Both the position numbers and the translations under genes were made by a program. Below, in pieces: positions 1-17,180 of a stretch of 64,000 nucleotides of DNA; position 1 is the stretch's first letter; every line of letters begins with the position of its first letter. The notes under the pieces were generated by a model. The model was not told where the DNA came from, ran no database searches, and was given only the letters and a program-made list of their open reading frames with translations. The DNA lies in NCBI RefSeq assembly GCF_004923315.1, contig NZ_CP039647.1, positions 682,001 to 746,000 on the forward strand, in the 5' to 3' direction. The DNA comes from Azospirillum sp. TSA2s. GTDB lineage: Bacteria > Pseudomonadota > Alphaproteobacteria > Azospirillales > Azospirillaceae.

Positions 1-288
1 GCCGTTTGGCGGCCGGCGCGTCAGCGCCAGCAGGTCCTCCAACCCTTCGGGCGTCACGGGTGCGTTGATGCGCAACGCCCGCAGGATCGGAACGGCCGGC
101 GGTGCCGCGAGGGCGGCCAGTGCCGTGTCGCGCGCCGCCGCCTTGTCGGCCGGTGGAACGGCATCCTCCAGGTCGATGATCAGCACATCGGCGCCGGATC
201 GGGCAGCACGGTCGAAGCGCTCCGGGCGGGTCGCCGGGGTGAACAGCCAGCTGCGGCGGGGCCGCCTGTCGTTGAACGGCCCGCTCAT
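1..288 (-). CDS. CoA ester lyase, CitE/HpcH-like, N-terminal part (cut by window edge)
   Basis: Ninety-six codons of the N-terminus are present; the rest lies beyond base 1. The opening matches the HpcH/HpaI aldolase-citrate lyase beta family: a RRSWLFTPATRPERFDRA start, then ADVLIIDLEDAVPPADKAAA, where the Glu/Asp of the LEDAV block sits in the metal and CoA-ester site. Family members cleave malyl-CoA, beta-methylmalyl-CoA or citramalyl-CoA. Its ATG overlaps the stop of the upstream hydratase gene (ATGA), so the two are translationally coupled. With a mesaconyl-C4-CoA-hydratase-like neighbour, citramalyl-CoA cleavage to acetyl-CoA and pyruvate is the most attractive role, but the specificity-determining C-terminal half is missing. 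Confident of family, not of substrate. Confidence 0.8.
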   Translation of the reverse strand, partial: MSGPFNDRRPRRSWLFTPATRPERFDRAARSGADVLIIDLEDAVPPADKAAARDTALAALAAPPAVPILRALRINAPVTPEGLEDLLALTRRPPNG

Positions 289-1145
289 GGGGTGACCACG
301 AATTCGGCGGTCATGGCGACCTGACCGTCCGGGCCGACCACCCACCCTTCGATTTCACCGTCCTCCCTGTCCGCCGCGTTCAGTGTAAAGGGCGCTGTGT
401 CGAACAATGGCCGCCGGGCACGGAAGCGGAAGCCGGCGACCCGCCGGTCTCCGAGATCGCCGCCGAGATTGCGCAACACCAGGTCCATCAGCAGGGTCGC
501 CGTCAGCGGTCCATGCACCACCAGCCCCGGGTAGCCTTCGGTCTCGCGGCAGTAGGGGCGGTCGTAATGGATGCGGTGGCCATTGAAAGTCAGCGCCGAA
601 TAGCGGAACAGCAGCACCGGGTCGGGGGTTACGCTGCCGGTCCAGCGGGAGGCGGGCAGCGGCTCGGCTGTCACGGCCGGCGGAACCGTCTCGCCCGGCT
701 TGGCGGCTTCGCGGTAGACGATGTCCTGCTTTTCACGGATGGCGACTCCGGCGTCGGTCGCGATCTCGTGCATCACGCTGACGAACACCATGTCGCCGGA
801 CCGACCGGCCTTGTGCTCCACTGCCTGGATCGTGGAGACGCGCCGCATTTCCGCACCGATGGGGATCGGCGCCAGGAAGCGCATGTCGCTGCCGGCCCAC
901 ATCCGCCGGGGCAGCGGCACCGGCGGCAGAAAGCCGCCCTTGTGCGGGTGGCCGTCCTCGCCAATGTCCCGCTGCAGCGCATTGGGGAGGAAATGCAGCC
1001 AATGGCCGAGCGGCGGCAACTCTCCCGCCGGCCATGGCGGGGTGTCGTGGTCCAGCGTCGCGGCCAGCCCCGCCAGCGGTGCGGCGGCGGCGGTATCAGT
1101 CCGCATCTCCACCCGGCCGACCCAATCCTTCAGATGATCGAACAT
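285..1145 (-). CDS. Mesaconyl-C4-CoA-hydratase-like protein (HTD2/MaoC family)
   Basis: A 286-residue protein of the HTD2-like double-hotdog dehydratase group, which includes the mesaconyl-C4-CoA hydratase of the 3-hydroxypropionate bicycle. Seen: an N-terminal half with the GHWLHFLP and PLPRRMWAGSD segments typical of the group, and a C-terminal half with FRYSALTFNGHRIHYDRPY, the hydratase motif carrying Asn, His and Tyr, followed by GLVVHGPL. The reading frame is open further upstream, but the ATG at 1145 is preferred because it overlaps the preceding stop (TGATG) and gives the normal family length. Likely reaction: water addition to mesaconyl-C4-CoA giving citramalyl-CoA (inferred from family and the adjacent CitE-like lyase). 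Cytoplasmic. Confidence 0.82.
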   Translation of the reverse strand: MFDHLKDWVGRVEMRTDTAAAAPLAGLAATLDHDTPPWPAGELPPLGHWLHFLPNALQRDIGEDGHPHKGGFLPPVPLPRRMWAGSDMRFLAPIPIGAEMRRVSTIQAVEHKAGRSGDMVFVSVMHEIATDAGVAIREKQDIVYREAAKPGETVPPAVTAEPLPASRWTGSVTPDPVLLFRYSALTFNGHRIHYDRPYCRETEGYPGLVVHGPLTATLLMDLVLRNLGGDLGDRRVAGFRFRARRPLFDTAPFTLNAADREDGEIEGWVVGPDGQVAMTAEFVVTP

Positions 1146-2668
1146 CACGGCGACACCCCGGATATGTGCAGGATTTTTCCCGGATTCATGATGTTGTGCG
1201 GGTCGAAGGCACGCTTCAGCGTTGCCATCATCTCCAGTTCCACCGCTGATTTGTAGCGCGGCATCTCGTCGATGCGCAGGCGGCCGATGCCGTGTTCGGC
1301 CGAGATCGAGCCGCCGAGTTCGACGACCATGTCGTGGACGATGGCGTTGACCGTCGCCAGCTTGGCCTTCCACTCGACCGGGTCGCCATCCTCCGCCTGG
1401 ATTGGGTTGTAATGGATATTGCCATCGCCGAGATGGCCGAAGGAGAAGGGGCGGATGCCTGGGCAGGCCCGTTCCAGAGCCGCGTCGGTGCGATCAAGGA
1501 ATCGCGCCACGCGGGAGATCGGCACCGAGACGTCGTGCTTGAAGGATACGCCTTCGCGCTTCTGGCCTTCCGGAATGCCCTCGCGGATGCGCCACAGCGA
1601 ATCGGCCTGGGCCTTCGACGCGGCGACCACACCGTCGAGCACCTCTCCGGCCTCCATCCCCGCCTCCAGGATTCCTTCCAGCATTTCGGCCAGACGGTTG
1701 CCGGACTCCTGGTCGGCCAGCTCCACCAGCACATACCAGGGATAGCGGTCGCGGAGGGGATCGGGCACGTCCGGCACATGTTTGCGAGCCACGTCGATGC
1801 AGGCGCGCTGGATCAGCTCGAAGGTGACGATGCGGTCGCCCGCCACGCCCTTGGCGCGGGTCAGCAGATCGACGGCGTCGCTGGGGCCCGACACCGCGAC
1901 CAGCGCCGTGGCGGTGGCGCGCGGCAGCGGCGAGAGTTTCAGCACCGCGGCGGTGACGATGCCCAGCGTGCCTTCGGACCCGATGAAGATCTGTTTCAGG
2001 TCATAGCCGGCATTGTCCTTGCGCAGGCCGCGCAGCCCGTTCCAGATTTGCCCATCGGGCAGCACCACCTCCAGCCCGGCCACGAGGTTGCGCATGTTGC
2101 CGTAGCGCACGACCTGCACGCCGCCGGCATTGGTCGCGATGTTGCCGCCGATCTGGCACGATCCCTCGGCGGCGAGGCTCATCGGGAACAGCCGGCCGAC
2201 ATCGCGCGCCGCGTTTTGGATGTTGGCGAGGATGCAGCCGGCCTCCACCGTCATCGTGTCGTTGTCGATGTCGATCTCGCGGATGCGGTTCAGCCGGTTG
2301 GTGGAGATGACGATCTCCAATCCGTCGGCATGGGGCTGGCTGGCCCCGGTCAGGCCGGTGTTGCCGCCCTGCGGCACGATCGGCGTGCGGGTTTCGGCGC
2401 AGATGCGGACGACGGCGGCGAGAGCCTCGGTGCTGTCGGGCAGCACCACGGCGGGCGACCGGCCGACCCAGCCGTCACGCCAGGACTCCATGAAGGGCTT
2501 CATGGTGTCGGGATCGGTGATGAGGCCCCGCTCGCCGACGATGGCGCGGATCGGGGCGAGGACGGCCGTCGCGAAGTCCGGCCGGAGGGTGGCCTGTCCG
2601 CTGGTCTGCCCGCTGGTCTGGATATCGTTCGGCAAGGGAGCTCTCCCTGGGCTTCGGGCCTGCGTCAC
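1145..2668 (-). CDS. FAD-binding 2-hydroxyacid dehydrogenase (GlcD / D-2-hydroxyglutarate dehydrogenase type)
   Basis: About 507 residues. The N-terminal PCMH-type FAD domain has the PQGGNTGLTGAS motif and a G-rich QIGGNIATNAGG stretch; the C-terminal oxidase domain carries FSFGHLGDGNIHYN (metal-binding His residues) and SAEHGIG. These mark the GlcD/DLD/D2HGDH group that oxidises D-2-hydroxyacids to 2-oxoacids with FAD. The GTG start overlaps the aldehyde dehydrogenase stop (GTGA); a TTG about 12 codons in, behind a GGGAGAG, is an alternative. Its place beside a TRAP transporter and opposite a 2-oxoacid dehydrogenase E1 suggests it makes the E1 substrate from an imported 2-hydroxy dicarboxylate (inference). 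Confidence 0.85.
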   Translation of the reverse strand: MTQARSPGRAPLPNDIQTSGQTSGQATLRPDFATAVLAPIRAIVGERGLITDPDTMKPFMESWRDGWVGRSPAVVLPDSTEALAAVVRICAETRTPIVPQGGNTGLTGASQPHADGLEIVISTNRLNRIREIDIDNDTMTVEAGCILANIQNAARDVGRLFPMSLAAEGSCQIGGNIATNAGGVQVVRYGNMRNLVAGLEVVLPDGQIWNGLRGLRKDNAGYDLKQIFIGSEGTLGIVTAAVLKLSPLPRATATALVAVSGPSDAVDLLTRAKGVAGDRIVTFELIQRACIDVARKHVPDVPDPLRDRYPWYVLVELADQESGNRLAEMLEGILEAGMEAGEVLDGVVAASKAQADSLWRIREGIPEGQKREGVSFKHDVSVPISRVARFLDRTDAALERACPGIRPFSFGHLGDGNIHYNPIQAEDGDPVEWKAKLATVNAIVHDMVVELGGSISAEHGIGRLRIDEMPRYKSAVELEMMATLKRAFDPHNIMNPGKILHISGVSP

Positions 2669-4119
2669 AGCGCGCGGTAGGCCGTCTTGATGATGGTGTA
2701 GAATTCGATGGCCGAGCGCCCCTGCTCGCGCGGGCCGTAGCTCGACATCTTCCGGCCGCCGAAGGGGACGTGGTAGTCGACGCCCGCCGTCGGCAGGTTC
2801 AGCATGGTCATGCCGGCCTGGATGTTCGCCTGGAAATGGCGGGCGTGCTTCATCGAGTTGGTGATGATGCCCGACGACAGGCCATAGTCGGTGTCGTTGG
2901 CGACAGCCAGCGCCTCCTCGTAATCGCTGACGCGGATGACGCTGGCGACCGGGCCGAACACCTCCTCCCGGTTGATGGTCATGGCGTTGCTGGTCTCGGT
3001 GAACAGGGTCGGCGCCAGGAAATACCCACGCGTCGGTCGGTCCAGCCGGGTGCCGCCGGACGCCAGACGGGCGCCCTCGTCAAGGCCGGTGTCGATATAG
3101 TGCAGGTTCTTGCTCAGCTGGAATTCGTCGATCACAGGACCGATCTGCGTTTCCGGCTGCAGGGCGTGGCCGACGCGCAGCGCCGCCATCCGGTCCACCA
3201 TCGCGGCGACGAACGCATCGTGGATGCTGTCCTCGACGATGAATCGGCCGGTGGCGGTGCAGCGCTGCCCGGCGTGGAAATAGGCGCTGTTGACCCCGAT
3301 CTCGGCGGAACGCTCGGGATCGGCGTCGGCGAGCACGACCAGCGGGTTCTGACCGCCAAGTTCGAGCTGTACGCGGATCATGCGTTCGGCGCAGCGCACG
3401 GCGATGCGCCGTCCGGTGTTGACCGAACCGGTGAAGGACACCGCGTCCACCGTATCGACCACTGCGGCGCCGACATTCGGACCGGCGCCGATCACCAGAT
3501 TGAACAGGCCCGCTGGCATGCCGTGCGCTTCCAGGGCCGCCGCGATGATGCGGGTGACGGCGATGGAGATGCCGGGGGTCTTTTCCGACGGTTTCCAGAT
3601 CACCGCATTGCCGAAAGCCAGCGCCGGGGCGATCTTCCACATCGGCGTGGCGACGGGGAAGTTCCAGGGAGTCACCAGACCGATGACGCCGACCGGCTCT
3701 CGCGTCACGTCGACCTCGACCCCCGGCCGCACGGAGCCCAGCGTCTCGCCCGGCGCACGCAGCGCCTCGGCCGAGAAGAAGCGGGCGAGATGAGCGGCGC
3801 GGACGATCTCGCCCAGCGCGTCGGGGATGGTCTTGCCACCTTCGGTGGCGGCGATCCGCGCCAGCTCGTCCTTGCCGTCGAACAGCGCGCGGGAGATCGC
3901 GTCGAGCACCAGGGAGCGCTGCTCCACCGTGGTGGCACGCCATTGCGGCTGGGCTTTGCGGGCGGCGGCCACCGCCTCGGCCACGTCGTCGGCACCGGCC
4001 AGCGTGTAGGAACCGGCCAGTTCGTCCAGGTCCGACGGATTGAAGATGTCGAGCCGGTCGCGGCCCGGCCGCCAGCTGCCGGCAATGAAGTTGGTGATCG
4101 GACGGGTGTCGGGGGACAT
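2665..4119 (-). CDS. NAD(P)-dependent (semi)aldehyde dehydrogenase, SSDH-like
   Basis: A 484-residue aldehyde dehydrogenase, the usual length for GabD-type succinate or oxoglutarate semialdehyde dehydrogenases. Seen: LVTPWNFPVATPMWKIAPAL, the IWKPSEKTP cofactor segment, FTGSVNTGR, the general-base Glu in LELGGQNP and the catalytic Cys in GQRCTATGRF. The start at 4119 follows GGAG nine bases upstream; the open frame beyond it lacks family similarity. It follows the PanE-like gene by 53 bases and overlaps the FAD dehydrogenase gene by four, so it belongs to the TRAP operon. It probably oxidises a semialdehyde intermediate of the imported dicarboxylate; the true substrate cannot be read from sequence. 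Confidence 0.88.
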   Translation of the reverse strand: MSPDTRPITNFIAGSWRPGRDRLDIFNPSDLDELAGSYTLAGADDVAEAVAAARKAQPQWRATTVEQRSLVLDAISRALFDGKDELARIAATEGGKTIPDALGEIVRAAHLARFFSAEALRAPGETLGSVRPGVEVDVTREPVGVIGLVTPWNFPVATPMWKIAPALAFGNAVIWKPSEKTPGISIAVTRIIAAALEAHGMPAGLFNLVIGAGPNVGAAVVDTVDAVSFTGSVNTGRRIAVRCAERMIRVQLELGGQNPLVVLADADPERSAEIGVNSAYFHAGQRCTATGRFIVEDSIHDAFVAAMVDRMAALRVGHALQPETQIGPVIDEFQLSKNLHYIDTGLDEGARLASGGTRLDRPTRGYFLAPTLFTETSNAMTINREEVFGPVASVIRVSDYEEALAVANDTDYGLSSGIITNSMKHARHFQANIQAGMTMLNLPTAGVDYHVPFGGRKMSSYGPREQGRSAIEFYTIIKTAYRAL

Positions 4120-4172
4120 GTCGGGTCTTCTCCGGAAATCTGTTGGTTCGAGGGGAGGTGCGGCGGCCGGCA

Positions 4173-5156
4173 TCAGCCGGCGCGCGCCACCCGCTCCTTC
4201 AGGGCGGTCAGCGCCCACAGCGCCTCGATTGTCGGCACCGGCACGCTGCGGCGGCGGGCCAGTTCAAGGACGGCGGTAACGATGGGGTCGATCTCCATGC
4301 TGCGCCCTGCCTCGAAATCCTGCAGCATCGACGGCTTGTGGCCGGGAACGCCGCTGCCGCGGCTGAGCCGCTCATCGATGTCGTCGGGGAGGTCGACGCC
4401 CCAGGCGCGGGCCACATCCAGGCATTCACGCATCAGCCGGCCCTGGACGGCAGCCATGCCGGGAGCCTGCTCCATGGCGCCCATCGTGGCGCCGGTCAGC
4501 ACGCTGGTCGGGCCGACCGCCATGTTGAGCATCAGCTTGCTCCACAGCGGGACGCGGATGTCGGCGGGCAGACGGGCGGTCGCGCCGGCTGCATTGAAGC
4601 TGTCGGCCAGCGCCGCCAGCCTCCCGGCATGCTCGCCCGGGCGTGGCGCCCCGAAGGCCAGCACCGGCAGCGCGGTGTGGGCGACGACGCCCGGTTCGAC
4701 GATGCGGGCGGGCAGCACCTCGATCACGCAGGCGGCGGCCCGCTCCGGTCCGATGGCGGACCACAAGGCGCCGCCGGGATCGACCACCTCCAGCGGCTCC
4801 GCTGCGACACCGTCGCCGGCGCCGTGCAGATACCACCAGGGAATGCCGTTCTGCGCCGCCACCACCAGCGTGTCCGGTCCGCAGAGCGACGGGAAGGACG
4901 AGGCCAGCGCCGGCAGCCCGTGCCCCTTGACCGTGACGATCACCACGTCCTGGGGCCCCAGATCGGCGGCATCGTCGCTGGCCTGGGGCCGGGAGATCAG
5001 CGTGCCTTTCGGTGTCTGGACGGCCAGTCCGCGCTCGCGGATGGCCGCCAGATGGGCGCCGCGCGCCAGCAGCGACAGCTCGTGCCGGCCGGTCGCGGCG
5101 AGATACCCCGCCAGCGCGCCGCCCACGGCGCCGGCCCCTACGACGGCGATGCGCAT
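4173..5156 (-). CDS. 2-dehydropantoate 2-reductase (ApbA/PanE) family oxidoreductase
   Basis: A 327-residue protein with an N-terminal Rossmann fold (MRIAVVGAGAVGGALAGYLA) for NADPH, and the C-terminal helical domain with LWSKLMLNMAVGPTSVLTG, whose Lys is the catalytic residue of ketopantoate reductases. GGAAGG precedes the ATG. It lies 19 bases after the DctM gene and before the aldehyde dehydrogenase gene. Catabolic operons often carry PanE paralogues that reduce branched 2-oxoacids; here it may interconvert a 2-oxo and 2-hydroxy dicarboxylate rather than make pantoate (inference). No other pantothenate gene is nearby. Confidence 0.8.
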   Translation of the reverse strand: MRIAVVGAGAVGGALAGYLAATGRHELSLLARGAHLAAIRERGLAVQTPKGTLISRPQASDDAADLGPQDVVIVTVKGHGLPALASSFPSLCGPDTLVVAAQNGIPWWYLHGAGDGVAAEPLEVVDPGGALWSAIGPERAAACVIEVLPARIVEPGVVAHTALPVLAFGAPRPGEHAGRLAALADSFNAAGATARLPADIRVPLWSKLMLNMAVGPTSVLTGATMGAMEQAPGMAAVQGRLMRECLDVARAWGVDLPDDIDERLSRGSGVPGHKPSMLQDFEAGRSMEIDPIVTAVLELARRRSVPVPTIEALWALTALKERVARAG

Positions 5157-5175
5157 GTCGTCTTTCCTTCCTGTC

Positions 5176-7128
5176 TCACTTGAATTCCAGAGGCGGCAGC
5201 GCGTCGTCCATGTTGTTGCCCAGTCCCTGGAACTGCTCTTCGATCTGCTTGTCGTCGAGTTTGACGGCAGTCGACTTGTAATGCATGACCATTTGCGGGA
5301 AGGCGATCACCAGACCGACCATCACGAGCTGGATGACGACGAAGGGCACGGCGCCCCAATAGATCTGGCTGGTCAGGACCGGCGCCGTCTCCTTCTTCGT
5401 CACGCGGTCGATGTAGGGCAGCTTCGGCGCCACCGACCGCAGGAAGAACAGCGAGAAGCCGAAGGGCGGATGCATGAAGCTGGTTTGCATGTTCACCGCC
5501 AGGATGATGCCGAACCATACCAGATCGATGCCCAGCCGGTCCGCCGCCGGTGCCAGCAGAGGGATGATGATGAAGGCCAACTCGAAGAAATCGAGGAAGA
5601 AGGCCAGCAGGAACACCATGATGCTGACTGCGATCAGGAAGCCCAGCTGCCCGCCGGGCAGGGAGACCATCAGCTCCTCGACCCACACATGGCCGTTGAC
5701 GCCGTAGAAGGTCAGCGAGAACACCCGGGCGCCGATCAGGATGAACAGCACGAAGGCCGCCAGCTTCGCCGTCGAATAGGTGGCCTGACGCACCATGTCG
5801 AAGCTCAGCCGCTTCTTCATCGCTGCCAGCGCCAGCGCGCCGACGGCACCCATGGCGCCGCCCTCGGTCGGGGTGGCGAGGCCGATGAAGATGGTGCCGA
5901 GCACCAGGAAGATCAGCGCCAGCGGCGGCACCATCACGAAGGTGGCCTGCTCCGCCATCCGGGAGATCAGGCGCCGGCCGCTGGCCCGCTCCACCAGCGC
6001 CACCGCCAGGGCATAGAGCGCGCCCGCCGCGACGGAATCGCCCAGCAGGGCCAGCGTGGTCCAGCCGTTCAGCGTCAGCCATGCGGCTCCCGCCGTCAGC
6101 ACCGCCGTGACGGCTGCCTGCAGAACCAGACGCTGCACACCGAAGGTTCGGTTGAAGGTGGCGGCCAGGAAGGCCACCAGCACCGTCAAGGACAGCAGCA
6201 GCACGACATAGTCGGCGCCGGACTTCACGCCGGTGCGGCCCATCACCCAATAAGCGACCGCGCCGGAGAACAGGGCGAGCAGGCCGAGCTGCCAGATGCC
6301 GCGTGCGCCGTTCGGCTCACGGTAGGCGATGGCCTCCGGCGGCAGGCCGGGGGCGGCCTTGGGGAAGATGATCGAGACGATGAAGACATAGAGGGCGTAC
6401 AGGCCTGACAGCAGCAGGCCGGGGATGAAGGCGGCCTCGTACATGTCGCCGACAGAGCGGCCGAGCTGGTCGGCCATGACGATCAGCACCAGCGACGGCG
6501 GGATGATCTGCGCCAGCGTGCCCGAGGCGGCGATGATGCCCGACGCCAGACGGCGGTCGTAGCCGTAGCGCAGCATGATCGGCAGCGAGATCAGGCCCAT
6601 GGAGATGACGGAAGCCGCGACCACCCCGGTCGTCGCTGCCAGCAGCGCGCCGACGAAAATGACGGCGTAGGCGAGGCCGCCCCGGATCGACCCGAACAGC
6701 TGTCCGATGGTGTCGAGCAGATCCTCTGCCATGCCGGAGCGTTCCAGCACCAGCCCCATGAAGGTGAAGAAGGGCACGGCCAGCAGCACGTCATTGTTCA
6801 TCGTGCCGTAGACGCGTTCCGGCAGCGCCTGGAACAGATCGGGTCGGAACAGGCCCAGCTCGATGCCGATCAGGCCGAACAGCAAGCCGTTGGCGGCCAG
6901 TGCGAAGGCGACCGGATAGCCCAGCAGCAGCATGACCACCAGCACGGCGAACATGATCGGCGCCATGTTGTGGCCGAACCAGCCGCGCCAGCCGTCCTGT
7001 TCGGCGAGCGCGCCGGCACCCGGCACCGGCAGCACATAAAGCGCCACGGCGACGGCGGCCAGCAGCAGCAGGGAGATGACGGACAGCCGGACGGTGCGCG
7101 GCGAAAAGGAGGGGGAGGTCGTGCTCAT
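5176..7128 (-). CDS. dctM: TRAP transporter large permease (DctM type), enlarged
   Basis: The large membrane subunit of a tripartite ATP-independent periplasmic transporter. At 650 residues it is about 200 longer than an ordinary DctM. Typical segments are visible: GYPVAFALAANGLLFG, PFFTFMGLVLERSGMAEDLL, GTLAQIIPPSLVLIVMADQLG near residues 210-230 and the C-terminal PPFGFSLFFLRSV. The extra length comes mainly from an insertion of roughly residues 275-395 holding several additional hydrophobic segments, plus a hydrophilic tail ending LPPLEFK. It starts seven bases after the small-permease gene. Together with DctQ and DctP it should import an organic acid using a Na+ or H+ gradient. Confidence 0.92.
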   Translation of the reverse strand: MSTTSPSFSPRTVRLSVISLLLLAAVAVALYVLPVPGAGALAEQDGWRGWFGHNMAPIMFAVLVVMLLLGYPVAFALAANGLLFGLIGIELGLFRPDLFQALPERVYGTMNNDVLLAVPFFTFMGLVLERSGMAEDLLDTIGQLFGSIRGGLAYAVIFVGALLAATTGVVAASVISMGLISLPIMLRYGYDRRLASGIIAASGTLAQIIPPSLVLIVMADQLGRSVGDMYEAAFIPGLLLSGLYALYVFIVSIIFPKAAPGLPPEAIAYREPNGARGIWQLGLLALFSGAVAYWVMGRTGVKSGADYVVLLLSLTVLVAFLAATFNRTFGVQRLVLQAAVTAVLTAGAAWLTLNGWTTLALLGDSVAAGALYALAVALVERASGRRLISRMAEQATFVMVPPLALIFLVLGTIFIGLATPTEGGAMGAVGALALAAMKKRLSFDMVRQATYSTAKLAAFVLFILIGARVFSLTFYGVNGHVWVEELMVSLPGGQLGFLIAVSIMVFLLAFFLDFFELAFIIIPLLAPAADRLGIDLVWFGIILAVNMQTSFMHPPFGFSLFFLRSVAPKLPYIDRVTKKETAPVLTSQIYWGAVPFVVIQLVMVGLVIAFPQMVMHYKSTAVKLDDKQIEEQFQGLGNNMDDALPPLEFK

Positions 7129-7135
7129 CGCGCGT

Positions 7136-7783
7136 CTACCGGCTGGGAATGGTGTCGGGATGGGCGGTCCGTTCGCGTTCAGCGGCGAGCAGCCGCTCGG
7201 CCTCCGCCTCGGCCGCCGCCTGATGGCCTCCGGCCCGCTGGCTCGCGTCCTCCAGATGTCCGGACATGACCGCGGCGCGCTTGACCAGCTCCGACAGGCC
7301 CTGGACGAACAGCACGGTGAACCCGAGCGGAATCAGCAGCTTCGCCGGCCATTGCGGCAACCCGCCCGCGTTCATCGACTGTTCCTCGATGGCGAAGGAG
7401 GTGATGGCGAAGGGCCAGGAGGTGATCATCATCACGAAGCTGAAGGGCAGCAGGAAGGCAATATGGCCGAACAGGTCGATGCCGTCGCGCGCGCGCTTGG
7501 TCAGCATCGCGTTGACGATGTCGATGCGGATGTGTTCGTCGTCCTTCAGCGTCCAGGGGGAGCAGAGCAGGAACACCGCGGCGAACAGCACCCATTGCAG
7601 TTCCAGCCACGAGTTGGAGCTGACGTCGAACAGCTTGCGGATGACGGCGTTGACCGCCGAGACCAGGATCGCCAGCAGGATCAGCCAGGATATGGCCTTG
7701 CCCAGCCGAGCGGTGACCGCATCGACCAGCCGGCAGGCCCCGACCAGGGCCGTGATCAGAGGGGAGGGGGTGTGGCTCGTCAT
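7136..7783 (-). CDS. dctQ: TRAP transporter small permease (DctQ type)
   Basis: A 215-residue membrane protein with four hydrophobic segments. The DctQ signature is clear: SWLELQWVLFAAVFLLCSPWTLKDDEHIRIDIV contains the conserved Glu and the DEHIRID region. An Ala/Glu-rich cytoplasmic tail follows the last membrane segment. It lies between the solute-binding gene (112-base gap) and the large-permease gene (seven-base gap), the standard P-Q-M order. It bridges substrate handover and stabilises the large permease. Confidence 0.9.
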   Translation of the reverse strand: MTSHTPSPLITALVGACRLVDAVTARLGKAISWLILLAILVSAVNAVIRKLFDVSSNSWLELQWVLFAAVFLLCSPWTLKDDEHIRIDIVNAMLTKRARDGIDLFGHIAFLLPFSFVMMITSWPFAITSFAIEEQSMNAGGLPQWPAKLLIPLGFTVLFVQGLSELVKRAAVMSGHLEDASQRAGGHQAAAEAEAERLLAAERERTAHPDTIPSR

Positions 7784-9489: not shown

Positions 9490-12165
9490 ATGTCTAGGCC
9501 GTCCTCTCCGCTCAACGCCGCCGGGGCTGCCTATCTCGAAGCGTTGCAGGAACGCTTCCGCCACGATCCAGCGTCGGTGGATGTGAGCTGGCGAGCCGTC
9601 TTCCAGATTCTGGACGAACTCGGCGCCGCCGCCCCGGCGTCCGGTGCTCCGCTCTCCGATCCGCTGGTGTTGCTGCATGAGGAAATCCGCCAGCGCGGTC
9701 ATGCCGCCGCCGCTATCGATCCGCTGCGCCGTACCGCTCCGCCCGCTCGGATGGCGTCCGAGGATGCGGAGACCGCAAGGCTGCGCCGGCTCTATCAGGG
9801 CACTCTGACGCTTGAGACCGCCCATATCGACGATCCGGCGCTGCGGTCCTGGCTGCGCGACGCCTATGAGGGTGCCGACACCCTCCCGCCGGCCGAGGCG
9901 CGTCGCCGGGCCCTGTCGCTGCTGAGCGCAGCGGAAGAATTCGAAAGGCTGCTCGGCACCCGCTATCCGACCAAGAAGCGCTTCGGCGCGGAGGGGATGG
10001 AGACGTTGATCCCCCTGCTGGACCGCATCCTCGCGGCGGCGGCGGCGGCGGGCGTCACCGAGGTTCAGGTCGGGACCATGCACCGCGGCCGGCTCAGCTT
10101 GATGGCCAATGTGCTGGGCAAGCCCCTGGTCGAGCTGTTCGCGGGCATCAAGGGCATGCACCCGTTCCTGGCCGATCCGCCGGTTCCCGCCGACGTCCCC
10201 TATCACATGGGGGTGGAAAGCAGCCTGTCCTTCGACGACCGGACGCTTGCGCTGACCCTGTCGCCCAACCCGTCGCATCTGGAGGCGATCAATCCCGTCA
10301 CCCTGGGCCGGGCGCGGGCGCGCCAGGATCTGGCCCGCGAGCAGGGTGGCGAAGCGCGCCGGGTTCTGTGCGTGCTGCTGCACACCGACGCCAGCGTAAT
10401 CGGGCAGGGCAGCGTGACCGAGGCGCTGCAGCTGTCCGGCGTCGCCGGCTTCACTGTCGCCGGCACCATCCATATCGTCGTCAACAACCAGATCGGCTTC
10501 ACCACCGAACGTGACGAGGCGCGGACCTCACTTCACTGCACCGGACTTTGGAAGGCGGTGGACAGCCCCATCCTGCACGTCAATGCCGACGATCCCGACG
10601 CGGCGCTGCGGGCCGCCGATCTTGCCGTCGCCTTCCGGCAGACGCATGGGCGCGACGCGGTGATCGACCTCGTCGGCTACCGCCGGAACGGTCACAACGA
10701 GATCGACGAACCGCGCTTCACCCAGCCGCTGGACTACACGGCGATCGACACACACCCGCCGGCGCGCGCGCTCTATGCCAAGCGACTGGTGGCGGAAGGC
10801 GTCGTCGGCGACGGCGCGGTGGAGGGTCTGGCCGCCGGGCATAAGGCCCACTTCCAGGAGGCGCTTGCCGCCGCCGCCGACCACCGGCCGAACCATGACG
10901 GGTTCCCCGGAGGTCGCTGGGCGCCTTTCGCTCCGACCGGCTCGGCATCCATCGAACCGGACACCGGTATCGCCGCCGACCGGCTGCGAAGCTTGCTTGC
11001 GGCACTGGCCGCCATTCCGAACGAATTGGCGGTCGACCGAAAGGTCGAGCGCGTCATCCGTCGCCGCGCCGAGGAGCCGCTGGACTGGGCGACCGGCGAG
11101 GCGCTGGCCTTCGCCACGCTGCTGACAGATGGAATGCCGGTGCGGCTGACCGGCCAGGACGTTGTGCGGGGCGCCTTCTCTCACCGGCATTTCGCGCTGA
11201 CCGATGCCGTCACTGGGCGCCGCCATGTCAGCCTCAACCATTTGGGCGTCCCGCAGGCACGCTTCGACGTGGTCAACAGCCCGCTGTCGGAATATGCCGT
11301 GCTTGGCTTCGAATACGGTTACAGCCTGGAGCGGCCCGACGCGCTGGTGATCTGGGAGGCACAGTTCGGCGATTTCGCCAACGGCGCCCAGGTCCTGATC
11401 GACCAGTTCATCGTCAGCGCCGAGGACAAATGGCGCCAGCCCTCCGGTCTCGTCATCCTGCTGCCGCATGGCTTAGAAGGGCAGGGGCCGGAGCACTCCT
11501 CCGCCCGGCCGGAACGCTTCCTCCAGATGGCGGCACGTGACAACATCCGCATCGCCCATCCGTCCACTCCCGCGAACTACTTCCACCTGCTGCGGCGGCA
11601 GGTGTTGCGGCGCGACCGCAAGCCGCTGGTGGTGCTGAGCCCGAAGACCCTGCTGCGCCTGCCAGCCGCGGTGTCGGCGCTGGCCGAACTCGCGCCCGGG
11701 ACCGGGTTCCAGCCGATCGTCGTCACTGCCGGGGAACAGGTTCGCCGCATCCTGCTATGCAGCGGCAAGCTGGCATACGAGTTGGAGCGTGAACGGGCAG
11801 CCCTGGGGACCGAGGATGTCGCGGTGGTGCGGCTGGAGATGCTGTATCCTCTGCCCGAAGCCGAACTGTCGGCGCTGTTCCGCCGCTGGCCGGACGCATC
11901 CTGCCTGTGGGCGCAGGAGGAGCCGGTCAATCTGGGCGCCTGGACCTACCTCGACCGCCGGCTGGAGGCCTTGCGGGAAGCGGCCGGCTGCGTCGAGCCG
12001 CGCGTCGCCTGCGTGGCCCGCGCCGAGGCGGCCTCTCCCGCCGGCAGCTTCCACGGCGACCATGACGCCGATCAGCGCCGGTTGGTCGAACAGGCTTTCG
12101 CTGGAATTGTCGCTGCTGCAAATGCCGCCTCTCCGCCATCCCGCGGGAAAGCGGCGGCGGAGTGA
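9490..12165 (+). CDS. 2-oxoglutarate-dehydrogenase-type E1 component (SucA paralogue)
   Basis: An 891-residue thiamine-diphosphate E1 of the SucA/DHTKD1 family. The N-terminus has LNAAGAAYLEALQERF followed by the PASVD-SWRAVF E2-contact motif. GTMHRGRLSLMANVLG replaces the usual GMPHRGRLN, then come HTDASVIGQGSVTEALQL, VNNQIGFTT and DLVGYRRNGHNEIDEPRFTQ, the ThDP and Mg binding region. The C-terminal part carries RLTGQDVVRGAFSHRH. No E2 or E3 gene is in the window, so it is either an orphan E1 using housekeeping partners or acts alone. Replacement of the active-site Met-Pro by Thr-Met argues for a non-standard 2-oxo dicarboxylate. Start: ATG at 9490 is preferred over GTG at 9481; no strong ribosome site is visible. 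Confidence 0.85.
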   Translation: MSRPSSPLNAAGAAYLEALQERFRHDPASVDVSWRAVFQILDELGAAAPASGAPLSDPLVLLHEEIRQRGHAAAAIDPLRRTAPPARMASEDAETARLRRLYQGTLTLETAHIDDPALRSWLRDAYEGADTLPPAEARRRALSLLSAAEEFERLLGTRYPTKKRFGAEGMETLIPLLDRILAAAAAAGVTEVQVGTMHRGRLSLMANVLGKPLVELFAGIKGMHPFLADPPVPADVPYHMGVESSLSFDDRTLALTLSPNPSHLEAINPVTLGRARARQDLAREQGGEARRVLCVLLHTDASVIGQGSVTEALQLSGVAGFTVAGTIHIVVNNQIGFTTERDEARTSLHCTGLWKAVDSPILHVNADDPDAALRAADLAVAFRQTHGRDAVIDLVGYRRNGHNEIDEPRFTQPLDYTAIDTHPPARALYAKRLVAEGVVGDGAVEGLAAGHKAHFQEALAAAADHRPNHDGFPGGRWAPFAPTGSASIEPDTGIAADRLRSLLAALAAIPNELAVDRKVERVIRRRAEEPLDWATGEALAFATLLTDGMPVRLTGQDVVRGAFSHRHFALTDAVTGRRHVSLNHLGVPQARFDVVNSPLSEYAVLGFEYGYSLERPDALVIWEAQFGDFANGAQVLIDQFIVSAEDKWRQPSGLVILLPHGLEGQGPEHSSARPERFLQMAARDNIRIAHPSTPANYFHLLRRQVLRRDRKPLVVLSPKTLLRLPAAVSALAELAPGTGFQPIVVTAGEQVRRILLCSGKLAYELERERAALGTEDVAVVRLEMLYPLPEAELSALFRRWPDASCLWAQEEPVNLGAWTYLDRRLEALREAAGCVEPRVACVARAEAASPAGSFHGDHDADQRRLVEQAFAGIVAAANAASPPSRGKAAAE

Positions 12166-12238: not shown

Positions 12239-13942
12239 ATGTCTTCCACCTTGAGCACCGACAGCCCGTCCGAAGCCCGTCCGCTTCTGCTTCCCGACCT
12301 GTTGCAGGCCACGGCTTCGGCGCTCGACGCGGTGGCGCGGCTGGCCGAGGCGGCTGACCGCGGCGTCGCGGCGCTGGTGGCGCCGGAGGGCCGCGCGGAC
12401 GCAGCCCTGCTTGATCGCCATCAGGTGGCGGCGCATGGTTTCGCCTGGGTCGCCACCTATGCCGAGGCGCTGCGCCAGATGCGGGGCTGGGCGGAGCGGC
12501 TGGACCGCGCCGGCCGGCTGGGCGAACTGGAAGCGTCCATGCTCCAGGCGGCGTTCGGCGAGTATCTGGCCCAACTCGATGGCGGCTTGGCGATGAGCCA
12601 GGGCGAGATCGTCCGGCCGGCCGACTTCGCCCTGGACGAGGAGGAGCGGGACGCCTTCCGCACAGACGCGGTGCGCCGGCTGATGGCCGCCGGCAACGCG
12701 TCCGGCCTGCGGCTGCGCATCGCCGAGCTGCTGGCCGATGCGCTGCATGGCGGCGGCTTCGGCGAGGCGGCGCTGGAGGATGAGGCGCTGGACATGGTGC
12801 GCGACCAGTTCCGTCGCTTCGTCGCCGACGCGGTGGAGCCTCATGCCCACGACTGGCATCTGAAGGACGAGCTGATCCCGCTCGAGGTCGTCGAGCAGAT
12901 GGCTGAAATGGGCGTGTTCGGCCTGACCGTGCCGGAGGAAGATGGCGGGCTGGGCATGGGCAAGCTCGCCATGTGTGTGGTGACGGAGGAGCTGTCGCGT
13001 GGTTATATCGGCGTTGGCTCGCTCGGCACCCGTGCGGAGATCGCGGCCGAACTGATCCGCATGGGCGGCACGGCCGAGCAGCGCGAGCGCTGGCTGCCGC
13101 GCATCGCGTCGGGCGAGATCCTGCCAACCGCCGTATTCACCGAACCCAACACCGGCTCCGACCTGGGAAGCCTGCGCACCCGTGCGGTGCTGGACGGCGA
13201 CACCTATCGCGTCACCGGGGCGAAGACCTGGATCACCCACGGCAGCCGGTCGGATCTGATGACGCTGCTGGTGCGCACCGACCCAGACGCTCCCGGCTAC
13301 CGCGGCCTGTCGATGCTGCTGGCCGAAAAGCCGCGCGGCACCGAGGCAGACCCGTTCCCGGCCGAGGGCATGAGTGGCGGCGAGATCCCGGTGCTGGGAT
13401 ATCGCGGCATGAAGGAATACGAGATCGGCTTCGACGGTTTCGCCGTTCCGCGCGAAAACCTGCTGGGCGGCGTCGAGGGCCAAGGGTTCAAGCAGCTGAT
13501 GGCGACCTTTGAATCCGCCCGTGTGCAGACCGCCGCCCGTGCCGTCGGCGTGGCGCAGAACGCAATGGAACTCGGCCTGCGCTATGCACAGGAGCGCGTC
13601 CAGTTCGGCCGTCCGCTCGCCGCCTTCCCACGCGTCGCCGGCAAGCTGGCCTGGATGGCGGTGGAAACGATGATCGCCCGCCAGCTGACCTATTTCGCCG
13701 CGCGCGAGAAGGACGGCGACCGCCGCTGCGACATCGAGGCGGGCATGGCGAAGCTGTTGGCCGCCCGTGTCGCCTGGTCGAACGCCGACAATTCGGTTCA
13801 GATCCATGGCGGCAATGGCTATGCCGTCGAATATCCGGTCAGCCGGGTGCTGTGCGATGCGCGCATCCTGAACATCTTCGAGGGTGCGGCGGAAATCCAG
13901 GCCCAGGTCGTCGCCCGCGGCCTGCTGTCGCGCCGCAACTGA
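12239..13942 (+). CDS. mcd: (2S)-methylsuccinyl-CoA dehydrogenase-like acyl-CoA dehydrogenase
   Basis: A 567-residue flavoprotein. An N-terminal extension of about 170 residues precedes a normal acyl-CoA dehydrogenase core, the layout of methylsuccinyl-CoA dehydrogenase of the ethylmalonyl-CoA pathway (family knowledge). Core motifs: AVFTEPNTGSDLGSL (FAD/substrate loop), TGAKTWITHGSRSDLMTLLVRT, FESARVQTAARAVGVAQNA, VQIHGGNGYAVEYPVSR and FEGAAEIQAQVVARGLL at the C-terminus. Likely reaction: oxidation of methylsuccinyl-CoA to mesaconyl-CoA, electrons going to ETF. It follows the E1 gene by 73 bases on the same strand, and GGGGAA precedes the ATG. Other ethylmalonyl-CoA genes (crotonyl-CoA carboxylase/reductase, mutase) are absent, so this copy probably serves a dedicated catabolic route. 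Confidence 0.82.
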   Translation: MSSTLSTDSPSEARPLLLPDLLQATASALDAVARLAEAADRGVAALVAPEGRADAALLDRHQVAAHGFAWVATYAEALRQMRGWAERLDRAGRLGELEASMLQAAFGEYLAQLDGGLAMSQGEIVRPADFALDEEERDAFRTDAVRRLMAAGNASGLRLRIAELLADALHGGGFGEAALEDEALDMVRDQFRRFVADAVEPHAHDWHLKDELIPLEVVEQMAEMGVFGLTVPEEDGGLGMGKLAMCVVTEELSRGYIGVGSLGTRAEIAAELIRMGGTAEQRERWLPRIASGEILPTAVFTEPNTGSDLGSLRTRAVLDGDTYRVTGAKTWITHGSRSDLMTLLVRTDPDAPGYRGLSMLLAEKPRGTEADPFPAEGMSGGEIPVLGYRGMKEYEIGFDGFAVPRENLLGGVEGQGFKQLMATFESARVQTAARAVGVAQNAMELGLRYAQERVQFGRPLAAFPRVAGKLAWMAVETMIARQLTYFAAREKDGDRRCDIEAGMAKLLAARVAWSNADNSVQIHGGNGYAVEYPVSRVLCDARILNIFEGAAEIQAQVVARGLLSRRN

Positions 13943-14048: not shown

Positions 14049-15008
14049 ATGGAACTTCTGGAACTGCGCTATTTCGTTCAGGTGGCCGACCTTGGCAGCT
14101 TTTCCAAGGCATCGGTCAAGCTGGGTATCACCCAGCCGGCGCTGAGCCGGCAGGTCCAGAAGCTGGAACACGAGCTGCGCACCAGCCTGTTCTATCGCCA
14201 TGGCCGCGGCGTTTCGTTGACCCAGCAGGGGCGCAAGCTCTACGACGTGGTGCGCCACCTGCTGGGAGCGCTCAGCGAGATCAAGGAGGAAATCCAGGAC
14301 CAGTCGGAACGGCTGACCGGATCGGTCACGCTGGGGCTTCCGCCGTCGATCTGCGCCACGCTGGGCGCCCCGCTCGCCCGCCGCTTCCACCAGAATTATC
14401 CGGACGCCACGTTGCGCATCCACGAGGTGTTCAGCGGCACGTTGCTGGAGTGGGTGGAGGGCGGGAGGCTCGATCTCGCCGTTCTCTACGACGCGCGGCG
14501 CGGACGCAGCATGCTGTCGTCGCCCCTGCTGGTGGAAAACCTGCTTCTGGTCCAGTCCGCGAAGGAGGCGGAGGCCGGCGACGACGGGCCAGTCGGGGTG
14601 GAGATGTTGGGCGATCTGCACTTCGTGCTGCCCGGTCTGGAAAACGGGCTGCGTCGCGTGGTGGACGCGGCGGTTCGTCGTGCCGATATCAATCTGCTGG
14701 TCGATATGGAGATCGATTCCGTCACCGCCATCAAACAGCTGGTGGAGGAGGGAATGGGATCGACCATTCTCCCCTTCGGCGCCGTCCACCGGGAGGTGCA
14801 CCAGGGCCGGCTGGTCGCACGCGAGATCACGTCGAAGGACATGCATGCCATGCTGGTCACCGCGACACCGCTGCATCAGCCGGTGTCGAAGGCGACGCGC
14901 GCCCTGCTGCGGCTGATCCATGCCGAAGTCGTCAAATGCGTCGCCAATGGCGTGCTGAAGGGCAAGGTCGTCGCTCCCGGCAGCGCGGGGGAGAACAGTG
15001 CGCCCTGA
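14049..15008 (+). CDS. LysR-family transcriptional regulator
   Basis: A 319-residue LysR protein. The N-terminal winged helix starts MELLELRYFVQVADLGSFSKAS and continues ITQPALSRQVQKLEHEL; a substrate-binding domain follows (SVTLGLPPSICATLGAPLAR onwards), of the CbbR/NAC-like kind. The frame is open upstream to 13974, but the helix-turn-helix alignment fixes the start at 14049. It sits inside the rightward catabolic block, between the methylsuccinyl-CoA-dehydrogenase and SDR genes, and is the only regulator in region 1. It probably senses a pathway CoA ester or organic acid and controls the divergent promoters. Confidence 0.88.
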   Translation: MELLELRYFVQVADLGSFSKASVKLGITQPALSRQVQKLEHELRTSLFYRHGRGVSLTQQGRKLYDVVRHLLGALSEIKEEIQDQSERLTGSVTLGLPPSICATLGAPLARRFHQNYPDATLRIHEVFSGTLLEWVEGGRLDLAVLYDARRGRSMLSSPLLVENLLLVQSAKEAEAGDDGPVGVEMLGDLHFVLPGLENGLRRVVDAAVRRADINLLVDMEIDSVTAIKQLVEEGMGSTILPFGAVHREVHQGRLVAREITSKDMHAMLVTATPLHQPVSKATRALLRLIHAEVVKCVANGVLKGKVVAPGSAGENSAP

Positions 15009-15144
15009 CGGCGCCCGGCTCCGCACCTTCCACCCTGATATGCTTTGGGCGCTGATAGCAGTTATGACAGATGGTCCATAGCACGGCCCGTCCGGCCCGG
15101 ATAGCCTCCCCCATCATCACATAATCCCTTGGGAGGAACCGAGA

Positions 15145-15897
15145 ATGACGAAGCGCCTGGATGGCAAGGTCGCCCTGATTACCGGGGCGGCGCAGGGCCT
15201 GGGCCTTGCGATGGCCGAGACCTTCATGCGCGAGGGTGCCCGCGTGGCGGTCGTGGACATCAACGGCGACGCCGCACGCGCAGTGGCGGAGCGGCTGGGC
15301 CAGTCCGCCATCGGCATCGCCGCCAACGTGACCAAGGCCGCCGATGTCGAAATGACCATCGCCGCGACGGTCGAAAAGTTCGGGCGCCTCGACATCCTGG
15401 TGAACAATGCTGGCTCCACCCACGCCAAGGGTCCGTTCGAGGATGTGACCGAGGAGGAGTTCGACCGCGTCTTCGCCCTGAACGTCAAGTCGATCTACCT
15501 CTATTCCAAGGCGGTGGTGGCGACCATGCGGGCGCAGAAGTCCGGCGTCATCCTGAATCTCGGCTCCACCGCCGGGCTGCGCCCGCGTCCGGGGCTGGTG
15601 TGGTACAACGCGACAAAGGGCGCGGTGCACAACATCACCCAGTCGCTGGCGCTGGAGCTGGCACCCGACAACATCCGGGTCTGCGCGCTGGCTCCGGTCG
15701 CCACCGAAACGCCGCTGCTCGCCACCTTCATGGGCGGCGATACCCCGGAGAAGCGGGCGGCCATGATGGGCATCGTCCCGCTCGGCCGCCTGGGCCGACC
15801 GTCCGACGTCGCCAATGCTGCGCTGTATCTCGCCTCCGACGAGGCGTCCTTCATCACCGGCGTGGTGCTGGAGGTCGACGGCGGGCGGTGCGTGTAA
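15145..15897 (+). CDS. Short-chain dehydrogenase/reductase (FabG-like)
   Basis: A 250-residue classical SDR. Seen: TGAAQGLG nucleotide motif at residues 13-20, NNAG at 87-90, catalytic Ser141, Tyr154 and Lys158 (YNATK), and a C-terminal SFITGVVLEVDGG. Asp38 at the end of the second strand (VVDIN) suggests NAD preference. GGGAGGAACC lies just before the ATG. It precedes the CoA transferase gene by 74 bases. It may oxidise or reduce a hydroxyacyl or hydroxy dicarboxylate intermediate, but SDR substrates cannot be assigned from sequence. Confidence 0.85.
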   Translation: MTKRLDGKVALITGAAQGLGLAMAETFMREGARVAVVDINGDAARAVAERLGQSAIGIAANVTKAADVEMTIAATVEKFGRLDILVNNAGSTHAKGPFEDVTEEEFDRVFALNVKSIYLYSKAVVATMRAQKSGVILNLGSTAGLRPRPGLVWYNATKGAVHNITQSLALELAPDNIRVCALAPVATETPLLATFMGGDTPEKRAAMMGIVPLGRLGRPSDVANAALYLASDEASFITGVVLEVDGGRCV

Positions 15898-15971
15898 GGC
15901 CGGGGCGGATCTGCGCCCCTTCCCTGCGCTAATCCCTTCAATCTCATTCCTGCGAAGCGGATCCCCTTGGC

Positions 15972-17180
15972 ATGTCCTCGCTACTTTCCGATCTGCGCAT
16001 CGTCGAGGTGTCGGCCTTCGTCGCAGCTCCACTGGGCGGCATGACGCTGGCCCAATTGGGCGCGGAGGTGATCCGCATTGATCCCATCGGCGGCAACATC
16101 GACTACCGGCGCTGGCCGCTGGCGCCCAACGGCACCAGCCTCTATTGGACCGCTCTCAACAAGGCGAAGCGGTCGGTCGCCCTGGCGCTCGACAAGCCGG
16201 AGGGGCGGGAAATCGCCCAGGCCATCATCACCGCGTCGGGCGAGGATGCCGGCTTTCTGCTGACCAACCTGCCGGCCAGCGGCTGGATGGGGTATGAGGC
16301 GCTTTCCGCCAAGCGCGAGGACCTGATCATGCTGCGGCTGACCGGCAATCCCGACGGATCGGCGGCGGTCGATTACACCGTCAACTGCGCTGGCGGATTC
16401 CCGATGGCGACCGGCCGGGGAGGGGAGCCGGTAAACCATGTGCTGCCGGCCTGGGATGTGGCGGCCGGCCTCTATCTCGCCACCGGGCTGCTTGCGGCCG
16501 AACGGCATCGCCGCCGCACGGGCCGGGGGCAGGAGGTGACGGTGGCGCTGGCCGACGTGATGCTGGCGACCGTCGGCAATCTCGGCTACCTCGCCGACGT
16601 GCGGGTGAACGGCGCCGTGCGTCCGCCGATGGGCAATGACCTGTATGGCGCCTATGGCCGGGATTTCGCCACCGCCGATGGACGGCGGGCGATGGTCGTC
16701 GCCATTTCCAACCGCCAGTGGAAAGCGCTCGGCAAGGCGACTGGGCTTGGAGACAGGCTGGCGATGATCGGCCCACTGATGGGCGTGGACATGGATGATG
16801 AGGGCGGGCGCTTTCTGGCCCGGGATGCAATCTCCGCCGTGCTCGCCCCTTGGTTCGCCGCGCGCACCTTGGCGGAGGTGGAAGGTGCGTTCACCGGTAC
16901 GGGGGTGCTGTGGGGCCCATACCGCGATTTCGGCCAGCTCGTTGCGGAAGACGCACGTTGCTCCATCGCTAACCCGTTGTTCCGCGAAATCGACCAACCC
17001 GGCGTCGGGTCGCTGCTGGTTCCGGGATCGCCGCTCGGTTTTCCCGGTCTGGGCGAGCGCACCGATCATCGTCCGGCGCCCCGGCTGGGGCAGGACACCG
17101 AAGCGGTGTTGGCCGATCTGCTGGGTTTGCCTTCCGCGGAGATCGGTAGACTTCATGATGCCGGTATCACCATGGCATGA
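15972..17180 (+). CDS. mct: Class III CoA transferase, mesaconyl-CoA C1:C4 transferase-like
   Basis: A 402-residue CaiB/BaiF-family CoA transferase. Asp162 in HVLPAWDVAAGLY is the expected catalytic aspartate that carries CoA in this class. The opening VEVSAFVAAPLGGMTLAQLG and IDPIGGNIDYRRWPL, and the stretch RQWKALGKATGL, closely resemble (from memory) the intramolecular mesaconyl-CoA C1:C4 CoA transferase of Chloroflexus rather than generic formyl- or carnitine-CoA transferases. The proposed reaction moves CoA from C1 to C4 of mesaconate, linking the dehydrogenase upstream to the C4-CoA hydratase and lyase in the opposite operon. It is the last gene before the insertion-sequence cluster. 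Confidence 0.8.
   Translation: MSSLLSDLRIVEVSAFVAAPLGGMTLAQLGAEVIRIDPIGGNIDYRRWPLAPNGTSLYWTALNKAKRSVALALDKPEGREIAQAIITASGEDAGFLLTNLPASGWMGYEALSAKREDLIMLRLTGNPDGSAAVDYTVNCAGGFPMATGRGGEPVNHVLPAWDVAAGLYLATGLLAAERHRRRTGRGQEVTVALADVMLATVGNLGYLADVRVNGAVRPPMGNDLYGAYGRDFATADGRRAMVVAISNRQWKALGKATGLGDRLAMIGPLMGVDMDDEGGRFLARDAISAVLAPWFAARTLAEVEGAFTGTGVLWGPYRDFGQLVAEDARCSIANPLFREIDQPGVGSLLVPGSPLGFPGLGERTDHRPAPRLGQDTEAVLADLLGLPSAEIGRLHDAGITMA

Follow-up and report, generated by a model that had tools for sequence, protein, structure and literature searches.

What does the divergent gene block at the left end of a 64,000-nucleotide stretch of Azospirillum sp. TSA2s (C6:682001-746000, in an 8.1-Mb genome of 10 contigs; hereafter, the window) allow the cell to break down? 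The minus arm of the block runs from dctP to a gene for a CitE-like lyase and the plus arm runs from a gene for a 2-oxoglutarate-dehydrogenase-type E1 to mct. The initial annotation had noted that genes resembling methylsuccinyl-CoA dehydrogenase (mcd), mesaconyl-CoA C1:C4 CoA transferase (mct), an HTD2-like hydratase and the CitE-like lyase share this block. We found all four, although the lyase gene extends beyond the window and is whole only in the genome. Besides these core genes, the block contains the E1, which the initial annotation did not name, and, likewise unnamed there, genes for a D-2-hydroxyglutarate dehydrogenase (D2HGDH)-like flavoprotein, an aldehyde dehydrogenase resembling alpha-ketoglutaric semialdehyde dehydrogenase (KGSADH), a ketopantoate-reductase-like protein, a tripartite ATP-independent periplasmic (TRAP) transporter (DctMQP), a LysR-type regulator, and a short-chain dehydrogenase/reductase (SDR). 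We propose, with a probability of roughly one half, that the block serves to take up a methyl-branched C6 organic acid and to degrade it fully, with the E1 feeding a route composed of Mcd, Mct, the hydratase (Meh), and the lyase (Ccl).

The predicted Mcd-Mct-Meh-Ccl core

The gene at 12239..13942 (plus strand, 567 aa) encodes a (2S)-methylsuccinyl-C1-CoA-dehydrogenase-like Mcd. Its match to PDB 6es9, which we take to be the Mcd of Paracoccus, includes the N-terminal extension: 350 of 543 aligned residues are identical (64%), with 70/161 in the N-terminal part and 280/382 in the acyl-CoA dehydrogenase (ACAD) core. 6es9 is nested inside a tree of 89 Mcd rows (without duplicates, rows that contain stops, loci shorter than 8 kb, and rows below 55% identity or 85% coverage). 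We rejected the idea that this gene is a duplicate of another mcd, because the next closest ACAD in the genome is only 39% identical and aligns without the N-terminal extension. We also rejected a role in the ethylmalonyl-CoA pathway (Ccr, Ecm, Mcd, Mch, and Mcl), which has a C1-type Mcd in common with the window. The genome has no crotonyl-CoA carboxylase/reductase (Ccr) above the cut-off (the best score is 85 bits, versus 378.55), so Mcd is not serving that pathway; also, in the window, Mcd is paired with Mct.

mct (15972..17180, plus strand, 402 aa) encodes a class III CoA transferase whose best NCBIfam match is 2-methylfumaryl-CoA isomerase. It is identical to the Roseiflexus Mct (7xkg) at 224 of 399 aligned residues. 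In a tree of the family (without proteins that have internal stops or are shorter than 330 aa, exact duplicates, or loci of 8 kb or less), the window Mct and the characterised enzymes fall together against two other CaiB proteins, with support of 100/100. Asp165, Arg47, Tyr136, and a Leu or Ile at position 43 have been named for the intramolecular transferase (PMC9196870, PMC9813914), and the window Mct has all four, with Ile43. Among 71 rows of the family, Asp165, Arg47, and Tyr136 are each present in 71/71 and Leu/Ile43 in 62/71, but the invariance of Arg47, Tyr136, and Asp165 does not by itself separate substrates. The characterised references sit within a nearly all-proteobacterial tree, adjoining an alphaproteobacterial protein (L091), and this position bears on the origin of the enzyme of the 3-hydroxypropionate cycle.

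The predicted mesaconyl-C4-CoA hydratase (285..1145, minus strand, 286 aa) is an HTD2/MaoC-like protein with a FAS1_DH_region. Its best match in the PDB is itaconyl-CoA hydratase (8khg, 212 bits, residues 5-269), which also works as a mesaconyl-C4-CoA hydratase (PMC12290011). To follow the hydratase and the E1 within the genus, we used 45 Azospirillum genomes, including the window's, of which 19 have no mct match (G020, with a 47% mct, was left out). Searches for the hydratase and for a second E1 covered 28 chosen congeners, which do not include the window genome and which represent only 4 of the 19 without mct. The hydratase is present at 65% identity or more in all 24 searched genomes with mct, while one of the four without mct has a 55% match.

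The predicted (S)-citramalyl-CoA lyase has only its 5' part in the window (1..288, minus strand); the whole gene is L001:13419-14288 (289 aa, with the start chosen by motif). It belongs to PF03328, and its best PDB match is 3qll, "Citrate lyase" (284 bits, versus 136 bits for malyl-CoA lyase). The sequence leaves its substrate undecided.

Together, the C1-type Mcd, the transferase, the C4 hydratase, and the CitE-like lyase, in a genome with no Ccr above the cut-off, make it quite likely that the core runs from methylsuccinyl-C1-CoA via mesaconyl-C1-CoA, mesaconyl-C4-CoA, and citramalyl-CoA to acetyl-CoA and pyruvate, as had been predicted. The Ict-Ich-Mcd(C4)-Msi-Ccl system of Pseudomonas and Cupriavidus similarly converts methylsuccinyl-CoA via mesaconyl-CoA and (S)-citramalyl-CoA to acetyl-CoA and pyruvate, and its hydratase is of a type related to the one in the window (PMC12290011). 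However, that system uses methylsuccinyl-C4-CoA, made by a CoA transferase and oxidized by a C4 dehydrogenase, whereas the window has a C1-type Mcd. Also, the cluster as described there is without genes for Mct, E1, a TRAP transporter, an aldehyde dehydrogenase, or D2HGDH, all of which the window block has. Among the Pfam-scanned genes of the window block, there is no free-acid CoA transferase of the Pseudomonas type besides mct. Methylsuccinyl-C1-CoA has been called a dead end for C. necator (PMC12290011). If Mct took over the product of a C1-type Mcd, it would provide a way out of this dead end.

In the 3-hydroxypropionate bi-cycle, mesaconyl-C1-CoA is made from propionyl-CoA and glyoxylate, and mesaconyl-C4-CoA goes onward to citramalyl-CoA and then to acetyl-CoA and pyruvate. 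The conversion of mesaconyl-C1-CoA to the C4 ester in the second half of the Chloroflexus bi-cycle (PMC9196870, PMC9813914) is shared with the window, but here the mesaconyl-C1-CoA would probably come from methylsuccinyl-CoA dehydrogenase and the context would be catabolic. Another possible supplier of such a core is the 4-methyl-3-oxoadipate route (mml genes), which yields methylsuccinyl-CoA (PMC6449761), although no thiolase was recognised in the window block. Our searches of the open-licence literature showed no published C1 route and no report of this gene set in Azospirillum. What is new in the window is the C1 ester with the steps of Mct and E1; the overall conversion of methylsuccinate to acetyl-CoA and pyruvate is already published via C4 esters (PMC12290011).

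The E1 group and its linkage to mcd and mct

The first gene of the plus arm (9481..12165, plus strand, or from an alternative ATG at 9490) encodes a 2-oxoglutarate dehydrogenase (OGDH)-type E1 that we assign to a specialised group from its place in the tree and its signature. The genome encodes one other E1 (C9:842938-845292), and the two are 46% identical over residues 101-873. Specialised and other E1s are split with support of 100/100 in a tree of 9 versus 8 rows and again in a 25-row tree of 12 versus 13 rows (both unrooted, so the specialised set is a clade or a grade; one row, L282, read past a stop codon, given as X, and was trimmed to 890 residues for the 25-row tree). The 12 specialised and 13 housekeeping rows also differ at fixed positions (in window numbering): Pro240 in 12/12 versus Lys in 13/13, Thr302 in 12/12 versus Gly in 13/13, Met200 in 12/12 versus Ala, Pro, or Ser in 13/13, and Leu or Met at 665 in 12/12 versus Tyr or Phe in 12/13. 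Thus, the window E1 reads DVPYH and HTDA where housekeeping E1s read DVKYH and HGDA, and it lies outside the 13-row housekeeping group with support of 100/100. The signature, which is probably adjacent to the active site, lets the group be found easily, and we consider this group to be the most interesting part of the finding. From the tree and the signature, we judge it unlikely that the E1 is a plain copy of sucA, even though its scores clear the NCBIfam thresholds for an ordinary OGDH E1.

Which 2-oxo acid would this E1 accept? The residues that let DHTKD1 take a longer chain than OGDH have been described, chiefly a Ser for Tyr beside a His (PMC7340257, PMC7835950). By our own mapping of these positions onto the window numbering, the window E1 is in the OGDH state (Phe168, Tyr241, Phe340, and Glu671) rather than the DHTKD1 state (Tyr, Ser, Tyr, and Asp), so the backbone of its substrate should be of glutarate length, and 2-oxoadipate is unlikely. 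Residue 170 is Ala in the window E1 and Leu in 13/13 housekeeping rows. This suggests a pocket of glutarate length with room to spare, which would suit a branched 2-oxoglutarate. Like SucA and DHTKD1, with which it is homologous over its whole length, the window E1 keeps the N-terminal domain PF16078, which presumably binds E2; unlike them, it falls in a separate group, has its own signature, and is linked to mcd and mct. No E2 or E3 is among the recognised genes of the block, and no search aimed at E2 or E3 was made in the window genome. Elsewhere, a second E1 with the specialised signature (L283, in G207) is found on a short contig, some 4 kb away from a gene of the aconitase family, and a plasmid of Azoarcus sp. 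KH32C (L250) carries a housekeeping-type E1 with its own odhB beside an aldehyde dehydrogenase gene.

Within Azospirillum, the second E1 follows one type of mct: it was found in 20/20 searched congeners with an mct of at least 87% identity, in 0/4 with an mct of 69-83% identity, and in 0/4 without an mct match. The gene order of the window block recurs in several further Azospirillum genomes, which excludes a chance composition. Azospirillum also shows a second arrangement (L030, L031, L123, L124, and L227), in which mct, mcd, and the genes for the hydratase and lyase are joined by those for another class III CoA transferase and an ACAD that is 33% identical to Mcd; L030 also has DctP, and the E1 is not in the locus. 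This arrangement looks like a cluster for free methylsuccinate, and the genomes of L030, L031, L123, and L124 have no second E1.

The E1 also occurs with mcd and mct in Bradyrhizobium, Bosea, and Pseudorhizobium, in arrangements that differ. When the best 80 of a larger number of Mcd loci were scanned, with flanks of up to 10 kb, the E1 was present in 6 of the 8 loci with mct (five from Azospirillum and one each from Bradyrhizobium macuxiense, Bosea thiooxidans, and a Rhodopila bin) and in 0 of the 72 without. In B. macuxiense (L221), E1 (to 2740), mct (2740-3963), and mcd (3963-5645) abut each other. The B. thiooxidans locus (L205) has E1, mct, and mcd with TRAP genes, a 69% identical aldehyde dehydrogenase, and a 3-hydroxyisobutyrate-dehydrogenase-like gene. 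In these two genomes and the Rhodopila bin, a hydratase match of 44-54% is found elsewhere in the genome. A plasmid of Pseudorhizobium flavum (L127) carries genes for MmgE/PrpD, Mcd, E1, Mct, hydratase, lyase, and the electron transfer flavoprotein (ETF) within about 30 kb. Its E1 clusters with that of Bosea, but its Mct is in another subclade than the Azospirillum Mct, so E1 and mct may have come together more than once.

Among 385 sampled genomes of the class Alphaproteobacteria, mct matches were found in 6/9 genomes with two E1s versus 51/376 others (P = 0.0005, Fisher's exact test), where the six include the window genome and three of one genus and the signature was verified for only some of the second E1s. 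By genus, with both genes in one genome, the proportions are 4/7 versus 38/269 (P = 0.012; in the two-E1 genus of G248, mct is only in another of its genomes). As the best 4 or 2 candidates per genome were scored, the counts of mct and E1 are lower bounds. The enrichment was tested only after the pattern was seen.

The proposed route and its rivals

The gene families, their conservation, the linkage of E1 to mcd and mct, and the E1 signature can be read directly from the genomes; from these we infer the enzymatic activities, which 2-oxo acid is used, and what is imported. The TRAP transporter would import the branched acid. Its alcohol or aldehyde end would be oxidized to a carboxylate by three proteins, namely the SDR, the ketopantoate-reductase-like protein, and the aldehyde dehydrogenase resembling KGSADH, while the D2HGDH-like flavoprotein would turn a 2-hydroxy into a 2-oxo group. 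(The aldehyde dehydrogenase and the flavoprotein would fit the formation of a 2-oxo diacid from a hydroxy-aldehyde acid; near the second E1 of G396, too, there is a D2HGDH-like gene, 58% identical.) This would yield a branched form of 2-oxoglutarate, in the simplest case 3-methyl-2-oxoglutarate. With E2 and E3 borrowed from the housekeeping complex, the specialised E1 may then carry out an oxidative decarboxylation to (2S)-methylsuccinyl-C1-CoA. Mcd would oxidize this to mesaconyl-C1-CoA, Mct would shift the CoA to give mesaconyl-C4-CoA, the HTD2-like hydratase would form (S)-citramalyl-CoA, and the CitE-like lyase would split it into acetyl-CoA and pyruvate, with ETF carrying off the electrons from Mcd and the flavoprotein. 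Decarboxylation of 3-methyl-2-oxoglutarate puts the CoA on the carboxyl carbon beside the methyl group, giving the C1 ester that an Mcd of this type takes, which is why Mct would be necessary; among the branch positions, only 3-methyl should give the C1 ester and need Mct.

The evidence for the feeding step by E1 is more evenly balanced than that for the core. The initial annotation had the four parts joined in a catabolic path with entry from free methylsuccinate, mesaconate, or itaconate. The path itself is supported but that entry is not: we saw no CoA-activating enzyme for these acids in the block, and the E1 recurs with mcd and mct, so the entry is probably a branched 2-oxo acid. A broader proposal, which we make tentatively, is that an unrecognised stand-alone E1 group for methyl-branched 2-oxoglutarate feeds a plug-in Mcd-Mct-Meh-Ccl module found across many Alphaproteobacteria. 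The suppliers of the module might vary, with E1 here, a CoA transferase in other Azospirillum, and thiolase-type ring-degradation genes elsewhere.

Several observations weigh against the E1-fed route. The enzymatic roles of all proteins of the block are predictions. Mct scores 499 bits and does not reach the NCBIfam equivalog cut-off of 725 (TIGR04253). It is without Arg314, Arg75, and Arg104 of the Roseiflexus enzyme (Arg314 is present in only 5/71 rows of the family), and it is in a different major subclade from the characterised 7xkg and 8apq (the latter presumably the Chloroflexus Mct). The placement by which the initial annotation was to be judged is thus seen for the family as a whole, against the two CaiB proteins, but not at the level of subclades. 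The best hydratase is a 66-67% identical copy on a separate contig in 12 of the 20 E1-bearing Azospirillum. The linkage has exceptions: the Rhodopila bin with mct and mcd lacks an E1 at this locus and has just one elsewhere in its genome, E1s with the signature occur in G355 and G248, neither of which has an mct match, and G137 has two E1 matches and no mct match. G396 carries its second E1 and its mct on separate contigs, and the neighbour of that E1 is a different class III CoA transferase. Leu170 is retained in 2 of the 12 specialised E1s (L282 and L283). The window strain's own etfB, which adjoins the lyase gene, is cut short. Finally, a literature search for 3-methyl-2-oxoglutarate gave no match, and among the papers listed by a wider search, many of them on esters of oxoglutarate, we noticed none on such a breakdown of a methyl-branched 2-oxoglutarate.

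The E1 itself exceeds the NCBIfam equivalog cut-offs for ordinary OGDH E1 (974/764, 886/878, and 835/770 bits), so 2-oxoglutarate may be its substrate. This would fit an alternative in which the block degrades free methylsuccinate, mesaconate, or itaconate and the E1 is an ordinary OGDH copy that is incidental or that boosts succinyl-CoA as the CoA donor. The use of methylsuccinate is published for Pseudomonas and Cupriavidus (PMC12290011), and the arrangement in L030, L031, L123, and L124, with its extra class III transferase, ACAD, and DctP in genomes without a second E1, looks suited to it. For the window block, we consider this alternative unlikely, because mct is the only one of the genome's 15 class III CoA transferases in the block, the E1 separates the two types of cluster (20/20 versus 0/4), and the E1 group carries its own fixed signature.

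Two alternatives concern the substrates within an E1-fed or Mct-containing route. If the E1 acted on 4-methyl-2-oxoglutarate, which the glutarate-length residues of the pocket would also allow, the product would be methylsuccinyl-C4-CoA. 4-Methyl(ene)-glutamates are plant compounds, so a source can be imagined, but the C4 ester would call for a dehydrogenase of the C4 type, like that of Pseudomonas (PMC12290011), and would make Mct unnecessary, whereas the Mcd of the block resembles the C1 type; we give this little credence. It is similarly improbable that the substrate of Mct, Mcd, and the hydratase is some larger dicarboxylyl-CoA, such as that of a cyclic or aryl-substituted succinate, instead of the C5 mesaconyl esters. 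Phenylsuccinate and 2-(carboxymethyl)cyclohexane carboxylate are known to undergo CoA transfer within the molecule (PMC11659651), and relatives of mct in Variovorax and Pseudonocardia lie near thiolases, ring-hydroxylating dioxygenases, and enoyl-CoA hydratases. However, a CitE-like lyase and an Ich-like hydratase accompany mct in the window, and Mcd resembles 6es9 over its whole length (64% identity). More broadly, relatives of mct in L130, L155, L156, and L157 (on plasmids of Variovorax, Comamonadaceae, and Pseudonocardia and on the conjugative plasmid pAKD34) are near thiolases, ring-hydroxylating dioxygenases, or ACAD genes, which are possibly other suppliers of methylsuccinyl-type CoA esters.

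Azospirillum is a genus known for plant growth promotion. If the proposed breakdown of a branched 2-oxo acid via E1 is correct, it would show what a conserved block on plasmids or chromids of this genus does and would add one more substrate to the OGDH type of E1. It would also suggest why at least 57 of the 385 sampled genomes of the class (the window genome counted) have matches to the Mct family, whose members are known from an autotrophic cycle. If the plug-in proposal is true as well, then the rhizosphere would contain a branched C6 acid that has gone unnoticed although it is common enough for the cluster to be kept.

Other genes and the edges of the block

The remaining genes of the minus arm begin beside the hydratase with the GlcD/D2HGDH-like FAD 2-hydroxyacid dehydrogenase (1145..2668, minus strand), which matches PDB 3pm9 with 469 bits and D-2-hydroxyglutarate dehydrogenase (6lpn) with 306 bits. 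The nearest models to the aldehyde dehydrogenase (2665..4119, minus strand) are 2,5-dioxovalerate and alpha-ketoglutaric semialdehyde dehydrogenase, with scores below their cut-offs. The ketopantoate-reductase-like dehydrogenase (4173..5156, minus strand) scores 311 bits against NF005089 (cut-off 223). It hints at pantoate degradation, which we set aside on reasoning only, because a gem-dimethyl acid cannot yield methylsuccinyl-CoA. The arm is completed by the TRAP large permease DctM (5176..7128), the small permease DctQ (7136..7783), and the solute-binding protein DctP (7896..8981), all on the minus strand. On the plus strand, the LysR-type regulator (14049..15008) and the SDR oxidoreductase (15145..15897) lie between mcd and mct. 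A 53% identical homologue of the regulator adjoins the E1 of G355 and is the only gene recognised beside it.

At the left edge, etfB (L001:12899-13372) lies beside the lyase gene, and its alignment with relatives spans only some 109 residues. In A. ramasamyi and A. argentinense the block is followed by ETF genes, which fits the proposed route, and those of A. ramasamyi are full-length, so the window strain's copy looks rearranged at this edge. Directly to the right of the block, there are transposase-like open reading frames at 17249-18094 and 19554-20600 of the window.

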